In this document: piece after piece, positions 1,711 to 20,311 of the stretch
Layout of the letters: each line of letters opens with the position of its first letter
How positions within the stretch are numbered: the first letter of the stretch is position 1
Source: Theocolax elegans
Lineage: Eukaryota; Arthropoda; Insecta; Hymenoptera; Cerocephalidae
DNA: 64,000 bases
NCBI GenBank assembly: GCA_026168455.1
Contig: CM047426.1
Location: 58,377,812 to 58,441,811 of the forward strand
Direction of reading: 5' to 3'
Notes under the pieces: model-generated
The model's input: the letters and a program-made list of their open reading frames with translations, nothing else
Databases searched by the model: none
What the model was told of the DNA's origin: nothing
Translations under genes and position numbers: made by a program

Positions 1711-2149
1711 GTTGATAAATAAAAGAAAATTATTGCCGTAAAAGTTATTAGGCCGGAAATAATTAATTAATTGTAAAATAGTGGAAATGAAAGAAAAATG
1801 ATTCGGCCGAATTGTTTTATAATATTTGTATTGACGCGGTCTTGAACAATAAACAATGATATTTGTAAATAATATGATTAACGCAATTAATAATTCAATT
1901 ATTTTGCAATATTTCGGCATCGTAATTAATAAAATAAAAATTATATTGCGTGAAATAATTTGTCGGAGTGCTGTTTTACCCGATAACCTAAAACTGCGCA
2001 GCGTTTACCGACAGCGCGTCGGCCGGGACTCACCGCAAGATAAATCGCACATGCCGTGAAGAGGGCGACACGCGATTCAGTTTTGCTTATATCAGCGATT
2101 AAAAAATTTTTTTGATTGTGCGTATATTTTTATATTTTAATTAAAAGCT
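1711..2149 (+). repeat. Left terminal inverted repeat (outer part)
   Basis: Inverted match to 15547-15985 over equal lengths (439 bp); the only difference I found by eye is at 1735 (G here, A in the other copy read on this strand). Weaker similarity continues to about 2400, with small gaps. Both TIRs hold short open frames in both directions, one with a hydrophobic run near IIELLIALIILFTNIIVYC. These are probably incidental. Confidence 0.9.
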
Positions 2150-3055
2150 AAAAGATTTTATAAATAATGAACATATTGCAAGTTACTTACAAATAATTAG
2201 ATTGAATATTTTGAATTAATTTATTAATTTATTTGTTTTTTATTTCCCAAATATTTATAAAAATATATGTACTTATGCTACAAATAATAAAATAATTCAT
2301 AATGTTGATATAAACATATTAAAAATTGCTCTATTCTAAGCACAATTAATCTATGAACTTTAATAATTAATTATACAGAAGAAAGTAATTTACCGTTGTA
2401 AAAATTAATTAATTCTAGATTATTTTTAAAGTGAGTGCATACCAAGCCATGTTTTTTACAGATACAATTTTATGTTGAACTGTTAATATTATAATATTCA
2501 TAATTCGATACTCCGCTAGGAAAATGCGGTTATTTTACATACGTATATTATACGTATATAAAAGAGTTTCTCGTCTCATAATGTCCCTTCTTTCTAGTCC
2601 GCTTCACTCCGAGGTAGAAGTCACACAAGACGAATTTATTTAATTTTCAAAGGCTCAAAAATGTATTCGCTCGTAAAACAATATGTTATGTCGCAGTGGA
2701 TTTTTTAAAATACGATTAAAAAATTATTATAGGGCGTATAAAAACGCATTTTGCACCCACTACGATATAAATCTACTTTTGTGCATTAGTATCATAGTGT
2801 ACTATAAGTGGCCAGTATATAAGAGTCGATTAAACTAAACATTACCTCAAGGTGAAATTATACACCTATTTCCGGTTAAAATTACCCTCACTAAAATCTC
2901 TCTCGATGCGATAAGAATTCATTAAAAGAATAATCCAATATCGAAATAAAGTTTTATCGATATTTTTTTTGTATTTCACAACAAGGCTTCTTTTTCAATA
3001 CTTCATACTGATGACTTCAACTTATCATAAAACATGAAAGGAACCAAATTTTTTT
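2150..3055. other. AT-rich interior of the TIR unit, no gene
   Basis: The first ~250 bp are the diverged inner part of the TIR. The rest is AT-rich sequence without a supportable coding frame. Confidence 0.5.
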
Positions 3056-3059
3056 TGCA

Positions 3060-3595
3060 CCAAATGAGTATCAAGGGTGGTTTCGAAGCGTATAATGGAC
3101 CGAATATAACGATATTCTCTTTTTTCGACACGTTTTTTTGATAAGTGATAAATGATTTATATTGATAAGGGAATCTTCTTGTAACTAGAAAATGGTGCCC
3201 TATGAATATTTTTATCTGAAATAAATATTAAGGGTGCATCCCGGGGCTAAAATGGGCCGAGAATATTAGAAATTCTGTTTTTTTTTATTACTTTGGGGCA
3301 TTTCAAAAAAGCGTCTTTTAAAATAGTTTAAATTGATAAGGTAAGATTATTGAAACCCAATAAGGATGCTCAATTAATACTTTAAGCGGAATAAATATTA
3401 AGGGTGTTTGTCGGCGGTAAAATTGGCCGAGAATATCGAAATTCTGGTTTTTTCGAGATTATTTTGATGTATCTCATAAAGGCATCTATTGAAATGCTTT
3501 AAATTGATAAGGTAAGCTTATTAAAACTCAAGAAGGATGTTCAATTATTATTTTATGCGGAATAAATATTAAGAGAATATCGAAATTCTGCTATT
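3060..3595 (+). repeat. ~170-bp tandem repeats, about three to four units
   Basis: Units share AATAAATATTAAGGGTG, a GGCCGAGAATAT block, AAATTCTG and TTTAAATTGATAAGG at a spacing near 170 bp. The first unit (from ~3065) is the most diverged and the last is cut short at ~3590. A related block, in the same orientation, lies at 13410-13560 near the other end of the TIR unit. Confidence 0.7.
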
Positions 3596-3597
3596 TT

Positions 3598-4767
3598 GCT
3601 TCCTCGTAAAGGAAGCATTGTGTATGTGTGTGTGTAAACATTTAATATCTTTGGTTCTATCAAACCGATTGGACTCTTTTCGTTATGAACCGACGTTTTT
3701 TTGAAGTAGACATAAGACGTACTGGTGTAAATTTAAAGCATTATAAATGCTTTTTAGTTATAGTCAATTTTTTATTTTAAAAAATTGGTTTTTTGGATTT
3801 TTTCAATTATACCGTTAGAGTAGCTATATGTGACCAATGGTGATTTGTTGAGGATAAATTTATCTATCTTCTCGTTCAAGGTTTCTTCAGTTATCTTCAT
3901 TTGTTTTTGAGGTAATGCAAAAATAGACAATTTTTTTAAAGAAACTCGTAGTTCAAACAGTTATGCACTTGGATGAAAAAATATTGTTTAAAACATGTTT
4001 AAGGGCATGGAGTTCGGGATTTTTTCAAAAATTCATTCTTTTGCTTATAAAAGAATATAAAAAATCATCATTTTCTGGGACTGACATCTCCTTAATCTTC
4101 TGTAATTTTTAACGATTTAGATTAAACATGCAAAAAATGTAATCGATCAACGTTAAAATCGAAAGCTCAGTATTCGCACATATAATGGTACATATAATAG
4201 TATCCCTTTGGACGGCGTATACTGTACAAAAATTCAAGTGTCTAATATAAGTGTCATCATGTGTGTAATAACATTGTTTATTTCCTAAAAGATGTCAAAT
4301 TTTGGGCATAATTAATTATTCTAATTAATTAATTATTCTCTTTTGACCGGTGTCGATATTATATAGATATTGAATTTATAATTTTGACTTGTCCTAATTT
4401 ATGAAAACGCCGATAGCATTCATTTCTCCGAATAAAATACTACGAGAAGTATAGTCGCGATATTTATAGTTATAAATTCCTTTTTGCTTTTTGCAACGCA
4501 GTGAGAAAAATATTTTTCGTTGCGCGTTCATGGTACAGGTCAGAAGAGACTGAGGATGCAATTTACTTAAAATAGTCAATTTTTCAGTAGCCCTAGTAGT
4601 ATTTAGCTACACTTGAGCGTTCAAGAACGATTTAAAATAAATATAGTCCCTAAAAGCGTGGGGGCCCCGCAGATTTCTTCCCTGGCTCATTTTCCACATA
4701 TAAATAAAAGATTCATCTGCCTTAAATTTAGTATATTTTATTTATATATATATATTGTTTATGTACA
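3598..4767. other. AT-rich, downstream of the minus-strand gene
   Basis: Starts with a small hairpin (GCTTCC...GGAAGC, 3598-3616) followed by a short TG run. No coding frame with a recognisable motif. The region just below 4768 is the likely 3' untranslated side of the USP-SENP gene. Confidence 0.45.
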
Positions 4768-7248
4768 CTATTGAACATTAATATTTTTTGATAGATTTTG
4801 AATAATATTAAAAATTTCTTTTCTCTTATTTTTAATACTGTCTTCAGTAAACCAGGAAGTTACTTAAAAAAGTATAATTCTGAATGGGATTCTAAAAAAT
4901 TCAGTTAGTATTATTTATTTATTAATTAATAAATGTAAATATTATGAACATTATATAGTAGCAACAAAATTATATTCACCATAAAAAATTGTTCTACGTA
5001 ATGTAGTAAATATATCCCGCAGTCATATCCGTTCTTCTGTTGCGGAACAGCCATATGTATGGATCTTAAATTTGTAAAGTTTAAGATGGCTCCAGTCTTT
5101 TCTTTATACTCTAATTCAAAGAATTTTTTTATATTCTTGATTGCTAAGGGACGTTTTCCATTTAACGAATCAAATATCAATATACATGGACTACAAATAA
5201 GGAATTAATGATAATGATGTACAAAAGTAATAAGTGTTTAGAATACACACAAAATAGTTTACTTTCTACAAGGGAGAGAGGGGCTAACTTGAACGAGCAG
5301 AGTAAATTCTCGTTTGGTATTTTTTTAAAAATGGTATCTAAGGAAACAATTATTATATCATCAATAAATTTTTGTCCACATATAGATCTGTTAACTGCAA
5401 AGAATTTTTGCATTTTACATTCAATCGTATAGAAATAAGTTTATTAGCGACAAGAGAATATTTCGATTTCCGATAATAAGCAGCTAAATACTATTTACTC
5501 AAAGGAAGATTTAGTCGTCCGACCGGTCTCTGAGAGTAAAATATTTCCTGAATCATGTGTAAATTGAACGTGAGGAATAATTTGAACTCGTGTAAATCTA
5601 CAAAATAAAACTACCTACAGATTAAATCGAACATAAACAATCTAATATTATAAAAATACAAATATTCTATGTGGTACGATTGCTAGCTTATTAACTTATT
5701 TGTACGCCAAATGTAGGAACATAGTTGAGTCTAAGTTATTTCTAAAATGCCCTACACCATGTAAATTGAATTTTTGAATTAATTAATTAAAAATAGCGAT
5801 AACGCATTAATCTATGTTTTTACCTGCTTTTTTTCATTTTAACTAACTGAATTTCAACTTGAGCAGTTATTTAACGGGATGGAATAGTCAATTTTTACCG
5901 ACTGAATAGTGGCACACATATTTTGTTAATTAATCATTAAATACTTGAATAAATGGAAAATCAAGACATCATTGCCTTCCGTATTGGTACCTTCTATAAT
6001 TCAGCCAAGAGCAAAGTATGTACGCGCAGTTATTAACGAGAATGATTGGAAGGAAATTTTATAACCTATATCCACTATGCGAAAATTTCTTTCCAATGCT
6101 ATTTTAATACGAATTAAAATATGCGTTTGAAATTTTCCAGAAAAATAGATTGTACAAGTACGGAGAGCAAAGATGTGATCATTTCCTTTTAGAGAAAATA
6201 TGTATTAGTTAATTAAATATAATTGTCGCATATGGCTCGGTATAGGTAACAAATTGAGTATTACATTCCCTTATTCTTCTAATTCGTGAACAAAAGTCAA
6301 AGTTCGAGACTGAATAACTGAAGCTTAGGCTCCTGTAGCTGCAAAAAACGTTCAACTTTGTCCCGACCTTGGAGATAAATTTCAAAAAACGATTTTTATT
6401 CACCTACTGTAAATTTTTGGGTTTTCAATTTATACCTCTGGAATAAGTCTTTAAAAAATTTGATATCTTAAACTTAATGTAAAAGTATTTCAAATTCGCT
6501 GAGAAAAGAATTAAAAATAAAGTATTCAACTTAGCCTCGTTCTCTCCTAAATGAATTAAAATATAATAAAGGTTTATTTGAAATAAAATGTACCTGTATT
6601 GCTTAATTTGTTTAATTTCAGCATAGAACTGCAATCTTTGTTTCGCTACGTCACTAAATCCCATTGGATTTTGAAATAAATGTAAAAAGCAAATTATTAC
6701 CAAATACCAGTGTTTGCTAAAATATATAATTAAAAGATGAATTAATGTTTTTATTATTAGAATTTGTCATTTCAAAGGATGAATTACTGCGTACATACTT
6801 TTCATTTATAGGCACAATAATGAAGTCTTTTTCAAAAATATTTACATCCTTCGTCCACTTCATTTTCATTCGTTCCATTGGTAATTTAACAGTTTGTTTT
6901 AATTTTGTATAGAAGAATGAATCAAAAATATAAGTTCTTTCTCTATCTGTTCCATGTATAATGTTTAGAAAAATATAATTTAAATAAAAATTTATAATAA
7001 CGTCATTTAAGAATTGGTGATCCTTTAAACATTGTAAATGCTGCAATCTGATTTGAATTCCTCTTGGAATAGGTGGAGGAGGATATATAAGTATTCTACA
7101 ACAATGTTTATTTACTGAAATATTGAAATCATTATTACTTCATTATTATGTATTTATATATAATTGTGATATCTTACGTAGCATTACTTCCAACATTACT
7201 GCTCCAAGACTGTTCCGATAAGTTGTCAATGCTTAATTCACGCAACTC
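4768..7248 (-). CDS. SENP6/7-type SUMO protease domain (five exons)
   Basis: Ulp1/C48 cysteine protease, expected to remove SUMO, in SENP6/7 probably SUMO chains. Visible motifs: LIYPPPPIPRG, QCLKDHQFLNDVIINFYL, WTKDVNIFEKDFIIVPINE, then the catalytic triad: His in KHWYLVIICF (6710-6712), Asp in CILIFDSLNG (5169-5171) and Cys in QQKNGYDCGIYLLHYVEQFF (5019-5021) with the oxyanion Gln. The YPPPP lead-in and PCILIFDSL are typical of the SENP6/7 branch. The final exon begins NPIQNYTF and then, after an apparent 1-base insertion, continues as SWFTED...KRKEIFNII to a TAG at 4768-4770, the family's normal C-terminus. The catalytic residues are all intact. Confidence 0.85.
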
Positions 7249-8286
7249 CTACAATATATTATTATTTTCAATTATTCATAATATAAAAAAGTTTAAATTT
7301 GAGGTTATTTTCACAGTATAAATTATAAAATCCTTCTTCTTAGAAAAGAAATATCGACTGACAAAGAACTTAAACGTACTTTGTGTTCTGACGATATAGA
7401 AGAAAGCGCTGAATTTTGTGTGAATTCAATATTTATTTGAACCGGCGCCCCCATATTCATTCGATATTAATTATACTTTTCTTTCAAGTTATGACTTAGC
7501 CGTTATGTCGTTGGCTTAGAGCGTGGATCAAAACTACTTTGTGAACTGATTTGCTGAATTGTCAGATTATTTGATGTTTTTAACCAGGAGCACACTTTCT
7601 CGTGATTATTTTCTTGACCAAGTGCCTAATTTTTGTAACAAACAAAAGGACTTATAATAACGCATGAAAAGATTTATCTAATACTTTTCGCACAGTATTT
7701 TATTTCAAAATTATGTTTCCAAAATTTAGTACAAATCTTAAATACAAACAGACTCTGGTAAAACATCATTTTTTTTAATACAATTTAAAACATTTAATTA
7801 CAATCGCGTATACAAACGAACCGCTAGGGAAACATAATTTTTTTAATTCATAAAATTGAAATAAGTTAAACTGAACAAATTAAAAATATATTTCTCTTTT
7901 GAGATGAGGAGACCAGGCAAGAGAGCCCTGGTCGAAATGCCAAAATTTTTTTAATAATTTTACAAAGGCTACTCTAGGCCTTCCACCAACCATAGTGGAC
8001 GAAGAGTAAAGCCTTTTTATATATAAAGCATAATATGTATGGTTCGCAAAACCCGCTATTTTCATTATATTAAACCTACAGCGAACGTTAAAATTTTACA
8101 ACTAAAAGTACAAAATATTAATCAAAAATTTTTCATGTAATTGTATAAATTTATTATTAATTAGTAGAACTTGTGCTAGAGGAATAATTTTCGAATCTCA
8201 AAAAAGTTGTTAATGCGAGTAAAAAGAGCAGATTATTTCTCCAGTTGGAGGCTACTACGGGTTCTGTTCCATTAAAAAATATTTAC

Positions 8287-8472
8287 GTATAAATTTAATT
8301 TGTAATTATATATTATACTGACATTTGACTCGTTGATATCTGTTTCCAAATCTTGATTTAATTCTTCAACTATTGGAAAATCAATTTCATTTGCAGCATC
8401 AACATTTTTGCGAAGAACATCGATAGTTCCATACTTTTGACTTAAGTCACCTCTTATATTTTCAAGTATTTC
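8287..8472 (-). CDS. Linker exon between USP and SENP halves
   Basis: A 186-base exon with acceptor TTAG and donor GTAAAT, phase 0 on both sides. It would place an acidic stretch (EILENIRGDLSQKYG... then EIDFPIVEELNQDLETD) between the His-box exon of the USP part and the short exon 7248-7178 that leads into YPPPP. An alternative donor at 8318 breaks the phase. The acidic linker has no motif I recognise. It is the key exon for the claim that the two proteases are one protein. Confidence 0.5.
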
Positions 8473-8984
8473 CTAACATTTTGTAATATATATAAAGGCA
8501 GTTATAGCAGGATATAAAGTAAAATTTATATTACTAATATTGATTATTTAGCGATAATAATTTACTTTATATAAAAAATGAAATAATTTTTTATAACAAA
8601 TGCACGAATTTCGCGTTTTAATGCCTTAATAAAAATAGGGACTAATTCTTTTGCGCTCGGCAGGATTTCTCTCTAAATTTAGCGCATGTACGAATGAACA
8701 ATGGCATTAGTTATAAACAATAGCATAAATATTTGCAGGGGACGCAAAAAGACTCTATTAAAAAAACGCCCACTCCAGACGTTTAGCGAACGATTTTTTT
8801 ATGCAGTTCCTTAGCGTCTTTTGCGAATATATAATATATATTTTTTTACATTCGTGCATGCATATACATATATAAAATTGAAATGGTGGCGATTCAAAAT
8901 TAATTTATTGGCGCAATAATTGCTACATAGTTTACCGATCTTAAAAACCCCTTAAACTTGAACATTCGTGCACTTGTCACAAAA

Positions 8985-9200
8985 AATATGATGTGCACCA
9001 AGGGCTAAGTGGGTTTTTTTGCCTCGTTTATTTGCAGTATTTGGCTTCGGTGAGCAATGCACTCTCCTGCGGCTTGTGCTACCTCACCTGCACCTCGTAC
9101 TGTAAAATGATACGATTGGCGGAGAAAAAATTATCAAAAAGAGGATTTAACTATCTTTCAACCGGATCGTTTCCTGATAGATTGCAAATGGTTTAAATTG
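8985..9200 (+). repeat. Fragment related to the snap-back element at 10676
   Basis: Begins GTGCACCAAGGGCTAAGTGG followed by a T run and GCCTC, matching the ends of the element at 10676-11455. Only one end is seen, so it is a solo or degraded copy in an intron of the minus-strand gene. Confidence 0.45.
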
Positions 9201-9381
9201 AAGATGTCAATAGTATATTTCGTTTTAACAGAAACTTTTAGAAGTATTTCAATTTTAATATAATATTCTTAATTTTTTGTTCAGCATACACTTGTTAAAA
9301 TATATGTAATGTTTATTTAAAAGCTTATATTTAATGTAATTTATAAATATTTATATCAATACGTAATGAAGAATTTCTTAC

Positions 9382-12300
9382 ATGAATATGGAGTGGGAAA
9401 TCACTTATATGCATAGGTAATTCATTCTCTATCGAATTCTCTTGCCTGTATAAAAGCATATAAGCATTTTCATTTTTTCCTTTAATTTCATTTGAATTTG
9501 TTACTTCTAAGTAGGATACACGAGCATCATCAAAAATCAACCATCGATTGGTTTCAAAATCTTTTATATAAGCATAATAATGTCCTGCGTATGCAGTGCC
9601 TACATGAATAATTATGCAAAATAGCTCGTACGTAAAAATTCCTGCAAATAGTTTAAAAATAGTAAGTTCGATTATTAATATATTGTACATTGATTATATA
9701 ATCATAGTAATATAATTATAAAAAAAATTGAAAAGGAGGATGCCTGTACAGAAAATATTAAAAGAGAACCTATAAAACTGATCATAATATATATAAAAAG
9801 AAACAGAAATCGTAAAATTGTAATTAGCTTTTTATGTATAAAGAGAAAAATAATTAGAAAATAACTTTAAGGGGGTTCCATACTCAATTTTTGATGATTA
9901 ATTAATAAAGTAGTAAAAATGTGAAAAAATAAGAGAAGAGGCGCCTTCGTTTATTGACAATCTAACTGTGTGCTAAATTTTAGATTAAAATATTATTGCG
10001 TTTTCGAGAAAAGTCTTACCAAAAATATCAAATCTTTTCACCTCGTTGAGGTTAGGTTTACATTTTTGGTAAGACTTTTCTCAAAAACGCAATATAATTT
10101 TAATCTGAAATTCAGCACACAGTTAAATTATCAATAAACGAAGGCGCCTCTTCTCTTATTTTTTTACATACTGTTTTATTTACAAATTTATTACTAATAA
10201 TCACGATTGCCGATAAGGTAGGGAGGATAAATATTAACTATGGCACCCCATTAATAAATTATTGTACTTATTTCAACAATTTCAATCTAACTTAACTTAT
10301 TGTCCCACTGATTTGATATTCATATTTTCGTTATATACGTTACAATAGGTTTTTATTAATTAATACCAATCAGTGTACAATCTCCTTTATACACGTTAGA
10401 CGCAATTTTTAAAGCTATCTTACCTTTATCTGTTAATTCTTCATATTCTTTGAAATTGGTATCTACTGCCTTCATAAGCGAATGTAAATTTAAACGCTCA
10501 GGAAATGTGACTCTATAAATTGTAAATTTTTAATTAACATTTTTCGTTATGTAAAATAAGCGTTTGTTCCCGGGAAGAAAGTTGCTATCCGAGCTTTAGC
10601 TTTTGTCAGTAATTCATTCATGAGACTAATCGCTTTTTACTCCCGAAGTGCATATAAAATTTTTCACAATGAATATAGTGTACACCAATGGCTTTTAGGT
10701 GGGCTTTATTACCTCATGTGTTTGCAGTACTCACAAGGAGAATGTTTCAATTTTTGGAAACGGATCTTTATCAAACTCTAGAATATGTTTTCTACTATAA
10801 AAATATGAAGAAAGCCTGATTTTTAGGCTCTCATGCGCTTTTATACGATAGATATAAGCAAAAAACGAAAAATTTCGCGAAAGATAACCTTGACTTTGGT
10901 CGCTTAAAACGCGAAAACAAATAGAGATATGCACTCAAACTCAATTTCAGAAAACAGCTGAGATCGAATAGATTTGATTTGAAAAGAGAGAAGCTCAAAT
11001 ATCTTGATTTGGTCAAAAGTTATGAAAGAAAAAAGAATTTAATAATTTTGGCCTAAAAATGAATACATTTTTTACTTCAAAATATTCATCAAAATATCGT
11101 AAAATTCTTATTGTTTTCATAACTTTGAACTAAATCAAGATATTTGAGCTTCTATTTTTTTTAAATCCAATCTACTCGATCTTGGCTTTCTTCTGAAATT
11201 AAGTTCGAGTGCATATCTCTATTTGTTTTTGAGTTATAAACGACCAAAGTCAAGGGTATTTTTGGCGAAATTTTTCGTTTTTTGCTTATATCTATCGTAT
11301 AAAAGCACATGAGAGTCTAATACTCCGGCTTTCTTCATATTTTCGTAGTAGAAAACATATTCTAGAGTTCGGTATAGATCCGGTTCCTAAAGTTGAAACA
11401 CTCTCCTTGTCAGCCCAAAAAAGGCCACTTTACGCCCTTGGCACACAATATACTACTTAATCTGTAAAATAATGTAAAAATAAGGAAGAAAAATGTACTT
11501 ACGTATGATTTACTTTGATCCTTTTATTTATATTCAAATCATATGTGAATCGTTTTAGTTGCAGCGATAAAATATATGGCAATTTCTTAAACCTGTGTTG
11601 TTTAATAATTCCACATTCCTTTTTACAATAACCACATAAGTACTTATTCTCATCGTCTGTGCTGTCAATGTCAATAAAATTTTGTAAAGCTCTTTCCTAA
11701 ATAAATATTATTATTTCTTTAAGGATATTATTTTACTTATTTTATAACGATTCAATATAATTTTCTTAAAAATATATTTGAAGCATTTTATTTATACAAT
11801 TTAATTACTTTCATGAAATATTCTCATTTATTAGAACTAATTTTAAACGCAGATGTTAAAAGTAGGAGTAACTTACCACGCTATGGTAGTACGTTTTGTT
11901 TTTACTATTGGAAGACATTACTGAGAGGGGAATGATAAGAAAAGAATTTTCACTATATATAACTGTGCCACATTCCAAGCATTTGGTATAATCAATCAAG
12001 TTACCTATTAAATATTAATGTTCAAATAATACTTGATACTAACACGGTGATATGTAATTATAATTATATACCCTGATAAAGGTAGCTGATGAGGTCAAAT
12101 TGTAGAGTACTACACAAAATTTGCTGCAACGATTCGGAAAATGTTTGAAAAAACTCAACTATGTCTTGTTGTTCATTTGCTTTGGTAGGACCTCATCCAA
12201 AGCTTTCTGTCAAAGCAGTGGTTTCTGCAGCTTTTAAATTTGACGTCTATTAAAGGTAAATTACAATAATTATTTATTTTATATCTATTCACATATACAT

Positions 12301-14160
12301 TTATTAATTTATTACTATGGTAATAGATTATTATCATCAATTATATGGGTAATTTCGAAAGACACTATGAATTTTAATTAAAAAAATTTTTGTAAGGGGA
12401 AGTGATGTATTATGGTTAAAAATATTGAAATTATAAGCGGGGCACATATATAAATAAGCCGCAAATACCAGGGGAGATTACATGCATTATTATCTTTAAT
12501 TAAAGTTACTAAAAAAAGAAAATATGATAAATCTTAAAATGATATTCAAGAGAACCTGTTGGAAATCAAAATAATTCACACTATTTTTATACAATGTTCT
12601 ATTTTTTAATGAGATAGACAGTGCCAAGATGAAATACATTAAAAAAGGTACGTAAGTACAATTATTTGCAATAAACACGTATTACTTTTACACCAACATT
12701 TTTTTTAGAGCTGCGGTACATTAGAATATTTTAATATTGTTATATTACATTGAATTATGAAACTTTTAAATAATTTGTTATGATTTATCATAACCATAAT
12801 AATTATCAACGGTCAACTTTTTCGAAAATCAGGTGACATCTTTCAACGCGTATTTAAGGTGTTTAAAAATATTTTAAAGATCTTTTTATAGCTGAAAATA
12901 TTCGTCTATCCAATTAAAGCAAAGTAAGTGGGAGCAGAATTGATTTGCTTTCTTTTATAAATAATATGCATCAACAATTGGTAAAATGTGCTCGGTGACA
13001 GCCAGCGGAAAGTACATTTATGTTAGCTGTTCTACTACACTAGTTCAGACATAACATTTCTATATAAAAATAGTCTTAATTAATTGCAATTCTCTCTCAT
13101 AATTACGCACTCTCAATAATTATCGGTACACAAATTCGGACTTTTTTCTCGAAATGAACCATATTCTTTGTTTCAATAACAGCCCGAAAAAACCCTTGCG
13201 CTTTCGGCGCCGGATGGCAAAGCTGCAATCTCGGCCTCGTTGTTGAAAAAAAAAATAGTATATACACTTGGGGAGGTCAATAATCGGGTAACAATTTATA
13301 TGTTATTACCCTATGAGTTCGCCAATACTTCATATACTTACAAGTAGAGGATCAAACCTTCGGACAACGGATCTTTGCCAAATTCTAGCCAATGTTTTTT
13401 CTTATTTAGAATTTATATTAAGGGTGATGGGAGAGAGGGGGTAGAATGGGTCGAAAACCCAACAAGGGTGCGTCCGGAGGGCAAAATAGTCCAAAAATAA
13501 TTAAATTATCCGTTTTTGGAAGTTGTTTTTTCAGTATCTCAAAAAGGTGTCTTTTTATAGAACAAATAGTGCGTAAGTATTATAAATTCTCATATTAGTA
13601 TCGTTAATTAGAGTATAATCAGAATAATACATTGTTTTAACAAGTTTTTACTATGAATATTGTTTCCTATTAGAAGAATTGGAAAATTTGGACATTTTTT
13701 GTTGGATTTGAATGGATAATTATGCAGCAAGTTATGAAAGATATCCTTAGAATCTTTTTACATTTTGGTGTAAGTGTAAATGATTTTTTTAGAAATTTTG
13801 CTTGAATATATTTAATTGTAAGTTTGATCATATTATTTTCTAATTAGTTAAAATTTAGAAAAATTATTTCGTAAACAGTCGGCCATCATATTTGTATAAA
13901 TTCTTTAATGCAATAATGAACAAAATTGAATGTTCCCGTAAACTGAATATTACAATGAAATTAAAACTAGGAAATTTATACCTGTAAAATAAGAAAAAGT
14001 TTCTGCAACTCCAAAACCATGTCGCTATTAGCATCATCCGTTTCTAAACCTTCATTATAATAATTATACAAATTATTTCTGAACTCAGCGGTCATGTACA
14101 ATGTCTGCAGAACAGTATTTAGATAACACGTCATGCCTTGATTAATAAGTCCTACATAAT
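9382..14160 (-). CDS. USP47/USP7-type deubiquitinase domain (six exons)
   Basis: Cysteine protease that would cleave ubiquitin from proteins. Seen in order: DYVGL-type start and Cys box NQGMTCYLNTVLQTLYM (catalytic Cys codon near 14126-14128); the QQD block NEQQDIVEF; YQG then DYTKCLECG; a second metal-binding pair YLCGYCKKEC; LPYILSLQLKRF; VTFPERL; and the His box GTAYAGHYYAYIKDF (His codon near 9580-9582), followed by LIFDDARVSYL and AYMLLYRQ. The order and spacing match USP47 more closely than other USPs I can recall. Family members have long N-terminal and C-terminal regions that are absent here. The QQD exon has TGA at 12193-12195 in place of the conserved Trp; the reading frame otherwise stays open. 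Introns hold a TTAA MITE and a snap-back element. Confidence 0.82.
9871..10250. mobile_element. 380-bp TTAA-flanked MITE with snap-back core
   Basis: Ends GGGGGTTCCATA (left) and TATGGCACCCCA (right) are near-inverted copies flanked by TTAA at 9867-9870 and 10251-10254, the signature of piggyBac-type insertion. Inside, ~110-bp arms (about 9930-10035 and 10055-10165) containing GAGAAGAGGCGCCTTCG are inverted copies. No coding capacity. It lies in an intron of the USP half. Confidence 0.75.
10676..11455. mobile_element. ~780-bp snap-back element
   Basis: Two arms of ~370 bp are inverted copies around a centre near 11070. The outer ends read GTGTACACCAATGGC (left) and GCCCTTGGCACACAATAT (right), and inside both contain the ATATAAGCAAAAAACG and GAGATATGCACTC blocks in opposite sense. 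Arm identity is well below that of young elements. No coding frame. It lies in the intron between 11503 and 10512. Confidence 0.65.
13410..13560 (+). repeat. Distant copy of the ~170-bp repeat unit
   Basis: Contains ATATTAAGGGTG, GTAGAATGGG, a second AAGGGTGCGTCC, and CAGTATCTCAAAAAGG, matching the 3060-3595 units in the same orientation. It lies in the first intron of the minus-strand gene. Confidence 0.5.
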
Positions 14161-14404
14161 CTACAAAATGTATAAGCCATATCAAATAACAATAATTTTT
14201 AGGATATAATATACAGAGGTCTTAGAACAATATGCCTAAAATTACTGCCTTTAAAAAGTAAAAATCTAGAAATTAAGAGAGATAACAATTTTCGTATAGA
14301 AATCATGATTTTAAAAGGAATAATTTAACTTATACTTATGGATGTTGAATCCTGAAATAGCTAAATAATTATTGTACAGTGAAAAGTACTGAAATTCGTT
14401 TTAA

Positions 14405-15148
14405 GGAGGTTCGATACCGCTAGCGCGTGCTTCGACACACCAACTGCCACGGAAATTTGTAAAACTATTTTATTTTCAACTCACCGTATTTCACAATTTA
14501 ATTATCAAAATGTTTGAAAATAAATTATAAAGTTGAAAAAAAGTGAGTGGGAAAGTTCTAAAAAATGTAAAATAAAATTACAATATTATTATAAATATGT
14601 TAAAGAAAATGTGTACAAATTTGAGTCAAAAAGAGTTGGAGGTGATATAGTATTTTGCACTTGAACAACGATATAAATGCGCTCTTGGTTGACTGTAAGT
14701 CGGGCATTTCTGAGATCTTGTAACTCATAGTCCGCACGAATTTGTTTTATTAAATTTTGATTAGGTCAATAACCCTATTTGAAAATTCACTGACTATTAA
14801 CCCTATTACAAAATCTCATCTGACTTTTCAATCAATCTAGGTTTCTAATCTAATTTCAATCAAGGTTTTTAAAGTATTTTAAACATACTTTCGATTTTTA
14901 GAAATATTTTCGATCGTTAAAAATTTCTCACGTGAGAAATTTCCAAAAATTGACAATGTCTGAAACGCTTTAAAACCTTGATTTTTGAGTATACTCAAAA
15001 ATTTATTTCTATTATTATATCGGAAGTTTAAGCTGCGTTTCAGTTGAAAAGTCACGTGAGATTTTATATTAGGGAAGTATATTAAATGAAATGTTTCTAA
15101 CTTAGTTTGATTGGATCACGATATTGTCGACTTTAGTATCGAACCTCC
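14405..15148. mobile_element. 744-bp TTAA-flanked element
   Basis: TTAA at 14401-14404 and 15149-15152 flanks inverted ends GGAGGTTCGATAC and GTATCGAACCTCC (13 bp, perfect). The interior has inverted blocks around a TCTCACGTGAGA palindrome near 14930. No transposase frame. It is a piggyBac-type MITE inside the TIR unit, upstream of the first visible USP exon, where the missing 5' exons or promoter would be expected. Confidence 0.82.
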
Positions 15149-15546
15149 TTAAGTCGTCAAGTAATTTGTATAATTTAAAAACGTAAATTAAAAAAATTAA
15201 TTGTCCCTAATTTTGAAAGCGTTAGTACACAGTGATTGGCAAATATCTCGTAAATGAGCAATTCTACTTAATAGTTCAACAGTAAAGTATACCTACTTCT
15301 ACACAATTATTATTTTCATTTACATACTTATAATTCTTTACATTAATTGAATTTAAAGAATTGCAAATTTTGATACGTTTACATCAACACTCTAAATTAT
15401 TATTTGTAGCATACACATATTTCTATAAATATTTGAAAAATTAATGAATAAATACTAAAATTAATTAATTTATTTTGATAAGCAACAAAATTATGAATTT
15501 CAATAATTCAAAAAATAAATATTTAACAAGACTTTCAATCTAATTA
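15149..15546. other. Inner, diverged part of the right TIR; no gene
   Basis: AT-rich. From about 15300 it resembles the inverted sequence of 2150-2400 with gaps. No coding frame. Confidence 0.5.
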
Positions 15547-15985
15547 AGCTTTTAATTAAAATATAAAAATATACGCACAATCAAAAAAATTTTTTAATCG
15601 CTGATATAAGCAAAACTGAATCGCGTGTCGCCCTCTTCACGGCATGTGCGATTTATCTTGCGGTGAGTCCCGGCCGACGCGCTGTCGGTAAACGCTGCGC
15701 AGTTTTAGGTTATCGGGTAAAACAGCACTCCGACAAATTATTTCACGCAATATAATTTTTATTTTATTAATTACGATGCCGAAATATTGCAAAATAATTG
15801 AATTATTAATTGCGTTAATCATATTATTTACAAATATCATTGTTTATTGTTCAAGACCGCGTCAATACAAATATTATAAAACAATTCGGCCGAATCATTT
15901 TTCTTTCATTTCCACTATTTTACAATTAATTAATTATTTCCGGCCTAATAACTTTTACGACAATAATTTTCTTTTATTTATCAAC
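15547..15985 (-). repeat. Right terminal inverted repeat (outer part)
   Basis: Inverted copy of 1711-2149; near-identical across 439 bp. The inner boundary at 15547 is where identity abruptly falls. Confidence 0.9.
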
Positions 15986-16186
15986 CATTCAAAATAAGTA
16001 TTTAAATTATTTTTTTTTTAACAAAATTGCCCATTTTTTAATTTTGCGCGCGTTGGGAGTCACTTCTGGGTGCACTGCTGGGCCACAGCGCACCCAGAAG
16101 TGACTCCGAGCAGCGGCAAAACATAAAAATATAGGCCCAGCTCGGAGCCAATTTTGGGCGCACTGCTGGGCAAGCACACCATTACA
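15986..16186 (+). repeat. Remainder of Gypsy-1 5' LTR with an 18-bp hairpin
   Basis: Ends GGGCAAGCACACCATTACA, matching the 3' LTR end (GGGCCAAGCACACCGTTACA), then the primer site. The preceding ~180 bp do not match the 3' LTR. They hold a perfect 18-bp stem, GGAGTCACTTCTGGGTGC (16056-16073) with its inverse at 16090-16107, and a second GCACTGCTGGGC copy. This stretch looks like a further small insertion or a replacement. Confidence 0.6.
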
Positions 16187-16197: not shown

Positions 16198-16234
16198 TAA
16201 GTAAAGAATAAAGTCCCTAGACGTTAGTACAGTT

Positions 16235-17228
16235 CGTCGGGTGGGAGGAAAAGGGTGCTATTTCGAAATAACGGTGAAAAAGGTTCTAATTCGGATGAGC
16301 GGTGAAAAAGGTTCTAATTCGGATGAGTGGTGAAAAAGGTTCTAATTCGAATGAGCGGTGAAAAAGGTTCTAATTCGAATGAGCGGTGAAAATGGTTCTA
16401 ATTCGAATGAGCGGTGAAAATGGTTCTAATTCGAATGAGCGGTGAAAAAAGTTCTAATTCGGATGAGTGATGGAAAAGGTACTACTTCAAAAGAGCAATA
16501 AAAAGGTTTGAAGTTGGATGAGCGATAATTAAGGAAAATATATTTATTCCTGCAAACAAACAAAAAAGCTAAGTGGATTAATTATAATTTTTTAATTTTA
16601 TCAATAAGCTTTTTTGATTTTTAACAGGTTCACACGTTTAATGAAATCTTGCTCTTGGATCAAGAAAAAAAAGAGATATCAATAGTTTGATACAAAAAAA
16701 ACTAATTCCTAGTGAATATTATTGTTTTTATTATAGTTTATTGAATTAGCATTTATTTTTATTTAATAAATTATTGTCATAAATAAATCAATTTTTTTGT
16801 AAAACTTATCGTGAAGCCAAATATCAAATTCAATTATAGATTATACAAGTTAAACGTGTGAACCTGTTAAAAATCAAAAAAGCTTATTGATAAAATTAAA
16901 AAATTATAATTAATCCACTTAGCTTTTTTGTTTGTTTGCAGGAATAAATATATTTTCCTTAATTATCGCTCATCCAACTTCAAACCTTTTTATTGCTCTT
17001 TTGAAGTAGTACCTTTTCCATCACTCATCCGAATTAGAACTTTTTTCACCGCTCATTCGAATTAGAACCATTTTCACCGCTCATTCGAATTAGAACCTTT
17101 TTCACCGCTCATTCGAATTAGAACCTTTTTCACCACTCATCCGAATTAGAACCTTTTTCACCGCTCATCCGAATTAGAACCTTTTTCACCGTTATTTCGA
17201 AATAGCACCCTTTTCCTCCCACCCGACG
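16235..17228. mobile_element. ~1-kb foldback element with 28-bp subrepeats
   Basis: Left arm (from CGTCGGGTGGGAGG at 16235) and right arm (to CCTCCCACCCGACG at 17228) are inverted copies to within ~200 bp of the centre. Each arm carries tandem units of about 28 bp (GGTGAAAAAGGTTCTAATTC plus GGATGAGC or GAATGAGC): seven on the left and six on the right. AGTT flanks both ends (16231-16234 and 17229-17232) as a probable 4-bp duplication. The layout resembles Drosophila FB/Galileo foldback elements. No coding frame; inserted in the Gypsy-1 leader. Confidence 0.82.
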
Positions 17229-18352
17229 AGTTGATTGCGCGAACACGGCGCATAACAAGGGAATAGGAACGGACCGGAATTGAATTATTTATATGTATGC
17301 TCGGTTGATTTACGTGTGTTTGGTGATTAATACGTTAGTTACGTTGATTAATGTATAATTATTGTCGACAATTGGATTAATTGAATTGCAATTAATTTCA
17401 ATTAATAAATTATTGTGTTTGACAATAATTTAGATAATTTTATTTGATTTTCTTCGTTTTTTTTGTTTTTATGTAGAAGAAATCCGAAATCGACAATAAT
17501 AAAATTTCTTTATGATAATTCTTAACACACGTAAATTATAATAAATTCAGATTTATTTATTTACATGAGATAGAATCGTTTGAGGTCCACGATTTAAAAA
17601 CAAGTGTCCCTGATTCCGTATAGGTTAGTCGGAAAATTAGCGAAAGTAATTTTTCCGACTTAATAAAAATTGTTAATACCTGTGCAAGGGTGTGATTTTT
17701 GAAATTTGCTTAAATTATAATTTTGACTACGCGTATCGGCTCTCGCGTCATAATAAAAATTGTATTTAATTTTTTTTTTATGTAACACGCGATTGTAAGA
17801 GGTCACTGCGTTAGATATTCTACATAGTTAGGTAGGAATATATTTATTTATTAATTTATTTATTGATTAATTTATTAAATTATTTATTAATTTGTCCATG
17901 AATTTATTTATTTTTGAGGATAATCTGTTTTTTTTCTCATTTTATTGGATCGAAAATTTTTTTTATTGGTTAATATTTCGTTTAATTTATTTATTGTACA
18001 AAAATTTTTTTTTGTTTCGTTCAAAATCGGGTACAATATTTTAAAATAAATTAGACTGAAACGCGTATAACAAATTTAAATTGAAAGTGAAATTTAATTT
18101 ATTTTGTTAAATAGTTGTCAAAATTATAAATTTTTTTATTTTTTTTACAAGCAAGTTTCAAAGTGGTGAGCGTAAGTTGTTTATTTAAAAAGGGAAAAGA
18201 TCACAGTCTTCAACACACTGGCTCAATAATTTAGTAGTTTAACGCCACCTAGTGTTGAATAAACAAACCTTGCACAAGTAGCTGCGGAAGCGATTATTTT
18301 TTTATTTTTGTTAATAAACCGGCGATAGTTTTAAGATAATGTGGCAGAATCG
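17229..18352 (+). other. Gypsy-1 leader, no gene
   Basis: AT-rich untranslated leader between primer site and gag with runs of TTTATT. No supportable coding frame. Confidence 0.5.
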
Positions 18353-20115
18353 ATGACTGACCTGATCGATAACTGGATTGATACGGAATCCGGTGAACAA
18401 ATAAAGGCTCACCTCGAGTCGTTGGAGATGCGAATTGACGGCCCAAATTATAAGAGAGCCGAGCGTCTCCAACAGTGGTTATTGGGAAATTATACGGCTC
18501 AGGATTTTGCTGAAGAAACTACCTGATCCGAATTCTGATCCAGCTGTTGTGGAAGTTTTACAACAGACTCTTGCACTGGACGTTCCAGATATAGATGGAC
18601 AAGAGACACATGCAGATACTGAGGTAGATCAGCATGCAGAGGATCAACAATCCGAAGTCTCTAGCCAAGAAGCTAATAAAGAAGAGTGGATCACGTTAGT
18701 GTCTACAGGCGGCGCAGTTCGAGATAGCAGCAACATTTGCTGCGATGTTGACAGAGCAGTTGAAGCAACAGGCCGTCATGTCAGCACGGATGAAAGATTT
18801 GGAGACTCAAGTGTGTGCTTTGAAATTGGACTTCTACGCCCGCGATAGTACACAGAGAACGACCGCTAACAGAAACCGAGAGCCGAACCAACATGTCCGA
18901 TTCCAGGTTACATATACGTGTCATACACTGGACGATACGGACGAAAGACCACGATAAGTGCAGGCAGAGTGTGATGGTTCTCAAGCGCATCAAGCACCTG
19001 CTAGAGGAGCTTTGGGGAGGGGTGAGATATGGAGACAAGGTCAGCCTCCATATTCTAGCTCTCCCTACCCTAGTCGGATGGACTCAAACGTAACCGACCA
19101 ATCTACAACTAGATCGGCCGGGACAGTGCGTGATGTCGGCGCAATTGTTCGTAAGTGGGGAGTTCGATTCTCTGGAGACAAAAGCCAGAGTATTGAAGCA
19201 TTTCTTGCGCGAGTAGAGGATTGTAAAATACTCGCCAACCTCAGCGAGGACGAGGTGTTACCGTCCTTGTCTTCTCACCGATAATGCAGCTACTTGGTAT
19301 CGGAACGTGAAGGATAGACGGCACTCATGGCAAGATTTTGTAAGATATGCCAAGATGTGGTACGGAATGGGCCAGAGTTATCAACAACGGCTCATCGAGG
19401 AGTCTAACGCTCGCACGCAATGCAAAGATGAGCCGGTAAGAGATTATATTACCTGCTCGATTGCGATAATGCGTAAGCTCAAACCTATTCCTGATAAGCG
19501 GTGCCAGTTAGATCATCTGTACCGCAATATGCTACCTCAGCTTCAATGACTATTTAAGAGAGTTGAAGCTCGGTCGATCGAGAGTTTCTTACAATTGGCG
19601 TTAGACGCCGAGCAAACATTCGAGCGAGAAAAGCTATATCGGCCGCCTCCCGCAGAAGAAGACTTGATGCTGCCTGAATTAGCATATAAGTCGAGGAATA
19701 AGAAGCGGCCGAACGCTAAACCCAAGGTAGCAAGCGTAGCTAAGGAAACGAGTGAACCGACCCAACCGGATCTTTTGGAACGGTTCTCAAGGATTCTTGA
19801 GGATATGCTGAAATCCATGAACGGGAGTTGCCATACAGCTGGGGTGAGAGGCAACAATGATGTCTCTCAAAGCAAGAAGACCCACAGATCGCCTCCTCGT
19901 TTCAAGTGAGGACAGAGGAAGGGTAGTCGTAAGAGTCCTGATCAACAGTCATCGAATGGTCATACGTCAAGAAACGACGAGAAGTTTAATGCCGATGATA
20001 AGGAGAAGCGGAAAGACGTTGTCCCCAAGCCTATAGCCTGCAATACTTGTGGCAAATTGGGCTATACGAATAGGACGTGTCCTGATTGTACAAAAAACGC
20101 ACGGGGAAGCGGCTA
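18353..20115 (+). pseudogene. Gypsy-1 gag, broken
   Basis: Gag-like segments in shifting frames. An N-terminal piece begins MTDLIDNWIDTESG (18353) and fails at ~18525. Middle pieces include the capsid-like block FSGDKSQSIEAFLARVEDCK (19170-19230) and WYGMGQSYQQRL (19360-19395). A basic segment follows (RNKKRPNAKP). A single terminal zinc knuckle, CNTCGKLGYTNRTCPDC, lies near 20037-20090 with Tyr in place of the usual His. At least four frame breaks or stops separate the pieces. The product would package the element's RNA; this copy cannot make it. Confidence 0.7.
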
Positions 20116-20311
20116 GAGGGGACAGGTCCCGAGGTTGAGAGAGTCCCCGGAGAAGCGGTATTAATCCTCAAATCTCGAAGCAGTCAAGCTGCAGAGAGGC
20201 GTTAAGAAGACCTGACGATAAATGACCCCAAAGAAGTTAGAACGGATCCGGTCAGGAGTAAGATTTTAAAAATTACTCCGGAACCGAACTAGCGAGTTTA
20301 TAGTCCAGAAG

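Follow-up and report, generated by a model that had tools for sequence, protein, structure and literature searches.

A decayed ubiquitin–SUMO protease fusion gene within a hAT-type transposon of Theocolax elegans

Introduction

In this study, we describe a gene in which a ubiquitin protease (USP) of the USP47 type and a SUMO protease of the SENP6/7 type are joined, located on the minus strand of a 64,000-nucleotide stretch of the genome of the hymenopteran Theocolax elegans (assembly GCA_026168455.1, contig CM047426.1, positions 58,377,812 to 58,441,811; this whole stretch is hereafter the window, and unprefixed positions refer to it). The gene lies inside a DNA transposon (1711–16077) bounded by terminal inverted repeats (TIRs) of ~0.5 kb. 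We consider it likely that the window carries a decayed, transposase-less derivative of a hAT lineage with an accessory USP–SENP gene captured from two host genes, a reading that draws directly on the element itself, the family to which the gene belongs, the divergent pairing of that family with a transposase, the intron borders common to fusion and host genes, selection on the coding sequence, and the lesions of individual copies.

The ancestor of this lineage would have held two genes in divergent orientation, a hAT transposase gene and a multi-exon gene for a dual protease whose USP47-like and SENP6/7-like domains are connected by a linker, which in some copies includes a Cys-rich exon. The second gene would derive from a USP47-like and a SENP6/7-like gene, each captured as DNA together with its introns. 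An internal deletion would then have removed the transposase segment from the window subfamily, and nonsense codons would have interrupted its protease frame.

Structure and decay of the USP–SENP gene

The exons of the gene have AG/GT borders, and their splice phases are consistent throughout. The spliced protein, with X placed at stop codons, matches PF00443 over the whole profile (E 1.1e-50) and PF02902 over positions 1-190 of 217 (E 6.4e-28), and the closest solved structure to its SENP half is SENP7 (E 1.1e-43), followed by SENP2 (E 4.1e-22). In a sister copy, C41, the nearest solved structures are USP47 for the USP half (E 2.8e-70) and SENP7 for the SENP half (E 2.7e-53). Read by eye, the USP half of the window gene has a Cys box, a QQD box, two CxxC pairs, and a His box, and the SENP half has the triad residues His, Asp, and Cys. 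The complete USP core and the SENP6/7-type triad described in the original prediction, which was made from the letters of the window alone, are thus both confirmed; the twelve minus-strand exons that it listed agree in borders and phases, but a thirteenth (7625-7380) had been missed.

All thirteen exons are on the minus strand. The USP part begins in exon 1 (13982–14160), which encodes the Cys box (YVGLINQGMTCYLN), and continues through exon 2 (12072–12246; QQD box), exon 3 (11877–12004; first CxxC pair, CLEC), exon 4 (11503–11696; second CxxC pair, CGYC), and exon 5 (10367–10512) to exon 6 (9382–9641), which holds the His box (GHYYAYIKD) and the end of the USP fold. The linker is formed by exon 7 (8323–8472), exon 8 (7380–7625), and exon 9 (7178–7248). 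Exon 7, which is conserved in the C2:39.39-Mb copy, has two alternative ends, at 8323 (used here) and 8287 (used in the original prediction), each with a GT and with the phase kept, and exon 8 aligns (E 3.6e-15) to an exon that is open in the C2 copy. The SENP6/7-like fold starts in exon 10 (6799–7095; ILIYPPPP...), followed by the catalytic His in exon 11 (6594–6716; KHWYL), the Asp (LIFDSL) and Cys (QQKNGYDCGIYLL) in exon 12 (4980–5190), and the last exon, 13 (4844–4891). One or more N-terminal exons upstream of 14160 were not identified, no systematic search for them having been made. Inverted repeats within the introns, at 9887-10201 (83%) and 10730-11413 (88%), are perhaps nested small elements.

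The window copy is broken, and its frame is not open. An in-frame TGA in exon 2 (12195-12193), just ahead of the QQD box, and a TAA in exon 8 (7505-7503) are present in all three copies of the subfamily (window, C1012, and C346), and a second TAA in exon 8 (7469-7467) is found in the window alone. The last exon reaches a stop after 15 codons in the window and continues to 42 in C1012. Additionally, the reading frame changes in linker exons 7 and 9 of C1012 and in exons 9 and 10 of C346; in the latter copy, exons 12 and 13 are unmatched in the span read.

The transposon and its missing transposase

The left TIR (1711–2152, plus strand) has lost the outer ~93 bases of its tip, and the remaining 442 nt are 100% complementary to 15544-15985; the right TIR (15544–16077, minus strand) retains an intact tip, CAGTGCACCCAGAAGTG. 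The inverted repeats of other copies extend further out than the left arm of the window. The terminal repeat has 14 matches in the genome, and the tip CAGYGCACCCAGAAGTG occurs at 10 of the 12 ends examined, being displaced by an insert at the other two (C2 middle and C3). The tip pattern CAGYGCACCCAGAAGTGRCTCC has 26 occurrences, against 0 for a reversed control. The terminal inverted repeats of hAT elements begin with CAG, as this tip does. With its left tip lost, the window element has no readable target-site duplication (TSD), and the 8-bp TSDs come from related units on C1, C2, and C346: perfect duplications stand at both ends of C1:79543606-79588512 (44.9 kb; TTGTGCGC) and of C2:39378551-39454802 (76 kb; TTGTTGAT), and that of C346, AGTAAGGCT, has 3 extra bases at one end. 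Between the ends of the C2 unit lie both a transposase (39429016) and USP/C48 exons, but this unit is composite and contains a further TIR at 39417839. Duplications of 8 bp are usual for hAT elements, according to the available part of PMC12730594.

In the C1 element, a 638-aa open frame (L023:5683-7596) has as its only domain match a weak one to DUF4371, under the cut-off, and is 47% identical to the transposase open reading frame (ORF) of C5. The hAT dimerisation domain PF05699 is found in the C5 ORF over the cut-off (E 1.7e-5) and in that of C6 under it (E 0.0068). A genome search with the transposase returned at least 74 matches; none among those listed lies within the window copy, which is non-autonomous. 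The C1 transposase frame sits in a segment that is absent from the window: window 16077-15261 matches one side of this segment and 15271-14813 the other, and a TTAA junction with a 4-base overlap (15268–15271, no strand) marks the deletion. Since the C7:29.37-Mb and C6:53.48-Mb elements share C1 sequence past this junction, the deletion in the window form is most likely a derived state.

Other kinds of element were also considered. A Polinton/Maverick, suggested by an Ulp1-like protease together with long TIRs, is ruled out because the TSDs are of 8 bp and the transposase is of the hAT type, and a KDZ/Zisupton element, brought to mind by 8-bp TSDs and Ulp1, was set aside, the transposase being hAT-like. 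One scan of viral contigs with the fusion model gave no relative, and no viral gene was noticed among the ORFs listed for the C1, C7, C6, and C3 pieces, which were not put through a family search. Separately, a tyrosine recombinase gene (PF00589, E 3.1e-10) at L026:307-1815 lies within the 44.9-kb TIR-bounded element of C1 and may be nested or integral.

A family of fusions paired with hAT transposases

The relative placement of protease and transposase genes was surveyed with all 148 USP rows, all 73 C48 rows, and 73 of the 74 transposase rows as input, and merging of same-strand matches within 8 kb left at least 94 USP and at least 59 C48 clusters. At no fewer than 12 loci, the window included, a USP cluster is followed on its own strand by a C48 cluster no more than 15 kb away; the reversed order and opposite strands each occur 0 times among the USP and C48 matches listed, and by simple arithmetic chance would give ~0.06 such pairs, assuming independent places. 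These 12 loci are not 12 independent events, the window and C1012 being near-identical. Chance is nevertheless excluded for the USP–SENP arrangement because of the domain E-values and its repetition across the 12 loci. When transposase clusters are divided at 35% identity, a cut set after the table had been inspected, 16 of the 26 at or above it have a USP or C48 neighbour no more than 60 kb away, in every case in divergent orientation. Among the 25 clusters below it, six have a same-strand C48 (five of them downstream within 5 kb and one 32 kb off, close to the C4 fusion), and for 19 there is none among the matches listed.

Trees of the two halves recover two clades in common: {window, C2}, supported at 100/100 in both, and {C41, C5, C6:18.5 Mb}, supported at 100/100 in the USP tree and 97/97 in the SENP tree. 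A third, {C7a, C7b, C4}, has 94/97 in the SENP tree, with C4 and C7a ungrouped in the USP tree. The outgroup row of the USP tree was an incorrect stretch of sequence, so its root and the position of the host gene are left unused and the comparison relies on the two common clades; in that tree, C2 is represented without exon 1 and C6 by exons 1-2 alone.

A separate observation concerns C946:65499-68240 (L056), where a ~970-aa open frame combines a hAT transposase (PF05699, E 7.2e-7) with Ulp1/C48 (E 3.1e-6). Judged by its domains, this frame represents a separate hAT clade, in the group below 35%, with a predicted SUMO-type protease fused to the transposase.

Origin of the two halves

Host genes of both kinds exist apart from the element. 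The USP47-like gene at C1:7937000-7939200 (L058) has USP47 as its nearest solved structure (E 2.6e-95), then USP7 (1.2e-46), and the SENP6/7-like gene at C1:107.48 Mb (L042) is nearest to SENP7 (E 3.3e-67). They share domain families and intron borders with the fusion and differ from it in being separate, with no partner half within 15 kb of either among the matches listed. By reading, splice acceptors fall at the same residues and in the same phases in the window and host genes, in six of six cases for USP and three of three compared for SENP. These shared borders indicate that both halves were most likely captured as genomic DNA, not mRNA, and a retrogene origin is rejected on the same match of introns. 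The suggestion of one transcript with two captured domains comes close to the present result, in which the capture most likely took place at the DNA level, introns included. A fusion belonging to the animal as its own gene is not supported, given the separate host halves and the company of hAT-type transposons that the fusion keeps.

Selection and alternative explanations

In a comparison of the window with the C2 copy (577 codons, stop codon excluded), dN/dS is 0.229 for USP exons 2-6 (95% bootstrap 0.15-0.32), 0.230 for linker exons 7 and 9 (95% bootstrap 0.11-0.43), and 0.232 for SENP exons 10-12 (95% bootstrap 0.14-0.35), and the three parts are thus under equal purifying selection. The linker, which is conserved between these two lineages, lies outside both domains, and its constraint therefore argues for one reading frame. 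The fusion at the centre of the original prediction is supported, and by more than the window copy, being found at no fewer than 12 loci, with a linker conserved and constrained like both halves and two clades present in both half-trees. In C5, C7:47.76 Mb, and C41, a Cys-rich exon of the CPFC..CLRC type stands between the halves; it was not found in the first 18.5 kb of the window, and it has no solved-structure relative at E 1.

Pack-type elements often hold transduplicated host gene pieces without function, and the USP–SENP sequence could be such a passenger, given that most copies examined have a lesion of some kind and that the window subfamily is present at three places despite nonsense codons in each of its copies. 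However, a dN/dS of 0.23 across both lineages speaks against a passenger, and the order of the parts is unchanged in clades whose exons are only ~35-60% identical to those of the window, with divergent pairing to the transposase; we therefore regard this explanation as unlikely. It is rather unlikely, too, that a USP47 copy and a SENP6/7 copy were captured as two genes lying head to tail and encoding two proteins. The halves do derive from separate host-type genes, the fusion is known from DNA alone, and exon 6, if read past its donor, meets a stop 16 residues on, where an unspliced USP could end. Against two separate genes stand linker exons 7 and 9, which keep frame and phase at a dN/dS like that of the domains, the open state of linker exon 8 in the C2 copy, and a SENP fold whose start coincides with a border of a host intron and is preceded by no ATG within exon 10. 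A third alternative, in which segmental duplication multiplied a fusion gene of the host and the neighbouring transposon repeats are coincidental, would fit the multi-exon structure with host introns and is very improbable, since inverted repeats bound the unit, repeat-sharing units have 8-bp TSDs at two unlinked places, a transposase is associated at 16 clusters, and USP47-like and SENP6/7-like genes also exist apart.

Several points weigh against our favoured reading of a decayed hAT derivative with a captured dual-protease gene. No copy with every exon open was found among the ~10 fusion copies examined in sequence out of the whole set: a stop interrupts the Cys-rich exon of C41, a frame break affects the SENP part of C5, and in the C2 copy, which contains a partial duplication, exons 2-13 are open but no exon 1 was seen before them. 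The gene is known here from genomic DNA, and selection was estimated from one lineage pair, of which the window side has been a pseudogene for part of the time. C41, C5, C4, and C7:47.76 Mb retain a further host USP47 intron, which follows the His box exon and is missing from the window and C2. The TIRs were read in the group comprising the window, C1, C2, C346, C1012, C6, and C7:29.37 Mb, leaving out C41, C5, C4, and C7:47.76 Mb. The C1 element is without a USP or C48 match among those listed, and 10 of the 26 transposase clusters at or above 35% identity, that of C1 included, have none within 60 kb. Furthermore, the genome searches scored 149 of 185 (USP), 150 of 331 (C48), and 69 of 233 (transposase) candidates, which makes the counts from them lower bounds, and the survey covers one genome, that of Theocolax elegans.

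Relation to known transposon-borne proteases

Ulp1, OTU, VTD, and C19 domains carried by transposons are already known. Ulp1-bearing Mutator-like elements, KAONASHI/KI-MULE (melon, rice, and grapevine), have been described along with CACTA-ULP elements (PMC2528002). Like the present family, these are cut-and-paste transposons in which an Ulp1/C48 gene adjoins the transposase, with reverse orientation in the KI-MULEs; they differ in belonging to plants and to other transposase superfamilies, and the available part of that source mentions no ubiquitin protease or two-protease fusion (PMC2528002). Ginger1 transposons with OTU or Ulp1, and a Trichomonas protein combining transposase_11 with peptidase C19, likewise tie a ubiquitin or SUMO protease domain, C19 included, to a transposase (PMC2836005). 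In these cases, however, the protease is fused to the transposase, OTU or Ulp1 occurs per family, the elements are not hAT, and no USP-SENP combination is mentioned in the portion of the paper available (PMC2836005).

Two protease classes occur together in 121 VTD-bearing Helitrons that also hold OTU, and these resemble the present family in placing deubiquitinase domains on animal transposons (PMC9741609). Their domains are inside the Helitron frame, unlike captured intron-bearing USP47 and SENP6/7 genes, and a SUMO protease is not mentioned in the part of the text at hand (PMC9741609). A TET/JBP dioxygenase is carried by hAT7 and other transposons (PMC12730594); hAT7 shares with the present family an accessory enzyme gene adjoining a hAT transposase, but this enzyme modifies DNA, the elements are fungal, and their TSDs are of 7 bp, as far as the accessible sections go (PMC12730594). 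In the accessible portion of PMC10175614, the Ulp1-like protease of Polinton-type elements is the only one named. Neither a USP–SENP fusion nor a hAT carrier of either enzyme was found in the literature searched, whose scope did not extend to Repbase and most subscription journals; within that scope, the earlier statement that no described fusion of this kind is known agrees with this result.

Possible role of the dual protease

SENP6 and SENP7 trim poly-SUMO chains, which they prefer. SUMO chains recruit ubiquitin ligases, and piRNA silencing in insects uses SUMO. From its domains, an intact fusion protein would be expected to cut both ubiquitin and SUMO, and the action on mixed ubiquitin–SUMO chains proposed for it earlier is plausible. 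Its targets would most likely be the transposase, or proteins that take part in silencing or repair at the element. With both tags removed, such targets could escape SUMO-targeted ubiquitin ligases and the proteasome, or SUMO-dependent silencing could be weakened.

It is conceivable, and we suggest it tentatively, that the hAT lineage, by stitching together two host genes, evolved a two-headed enzyme able to erase the SUMO-targeted ubiquitin signal as a whole, and with it a means of countering silencing or protecting the transposase. If so, this enzyme would keep the transposase and the chromatin of the element beyond the reach of the SUMO-dependent silencing and the proteasome of the host. 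Ubiquitin and SUMO proteases have been acquired by transposons of several unrelated superfamilies, and the union of the two kinds in one protein under selection points to the hybrid SUMO–ubiquitin signal as the target being countered. The fusion may therefore serve as a natural reagent for testing the hybrid-signal idea, and the case itself presents a hAT element that probably captured two intron-bearing host genes.

Additional features of the window and genome

Beyond the right end of the element, the window has a further TIR tip, oppositely oriented (16086-16107), 8 bases past that end, and two 28-base repeat arrays that are inverted relative to each other (16234-17229; arms of 366 nt, 97%). 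A region of higher GC at 18300-20116 contains open frames that, by eye, resemble a retroelement gag with a CCHC knuckle. Elsewhere in the genome, C1:8001290-8009326 and C2:100630644-100638617 hold open frames of ~2900 aa, each with two UCH matches ~7 kb apart, and similar paired UCH matches recur on further contigs, which suggests an additional multi-copy family bearing USP domains.

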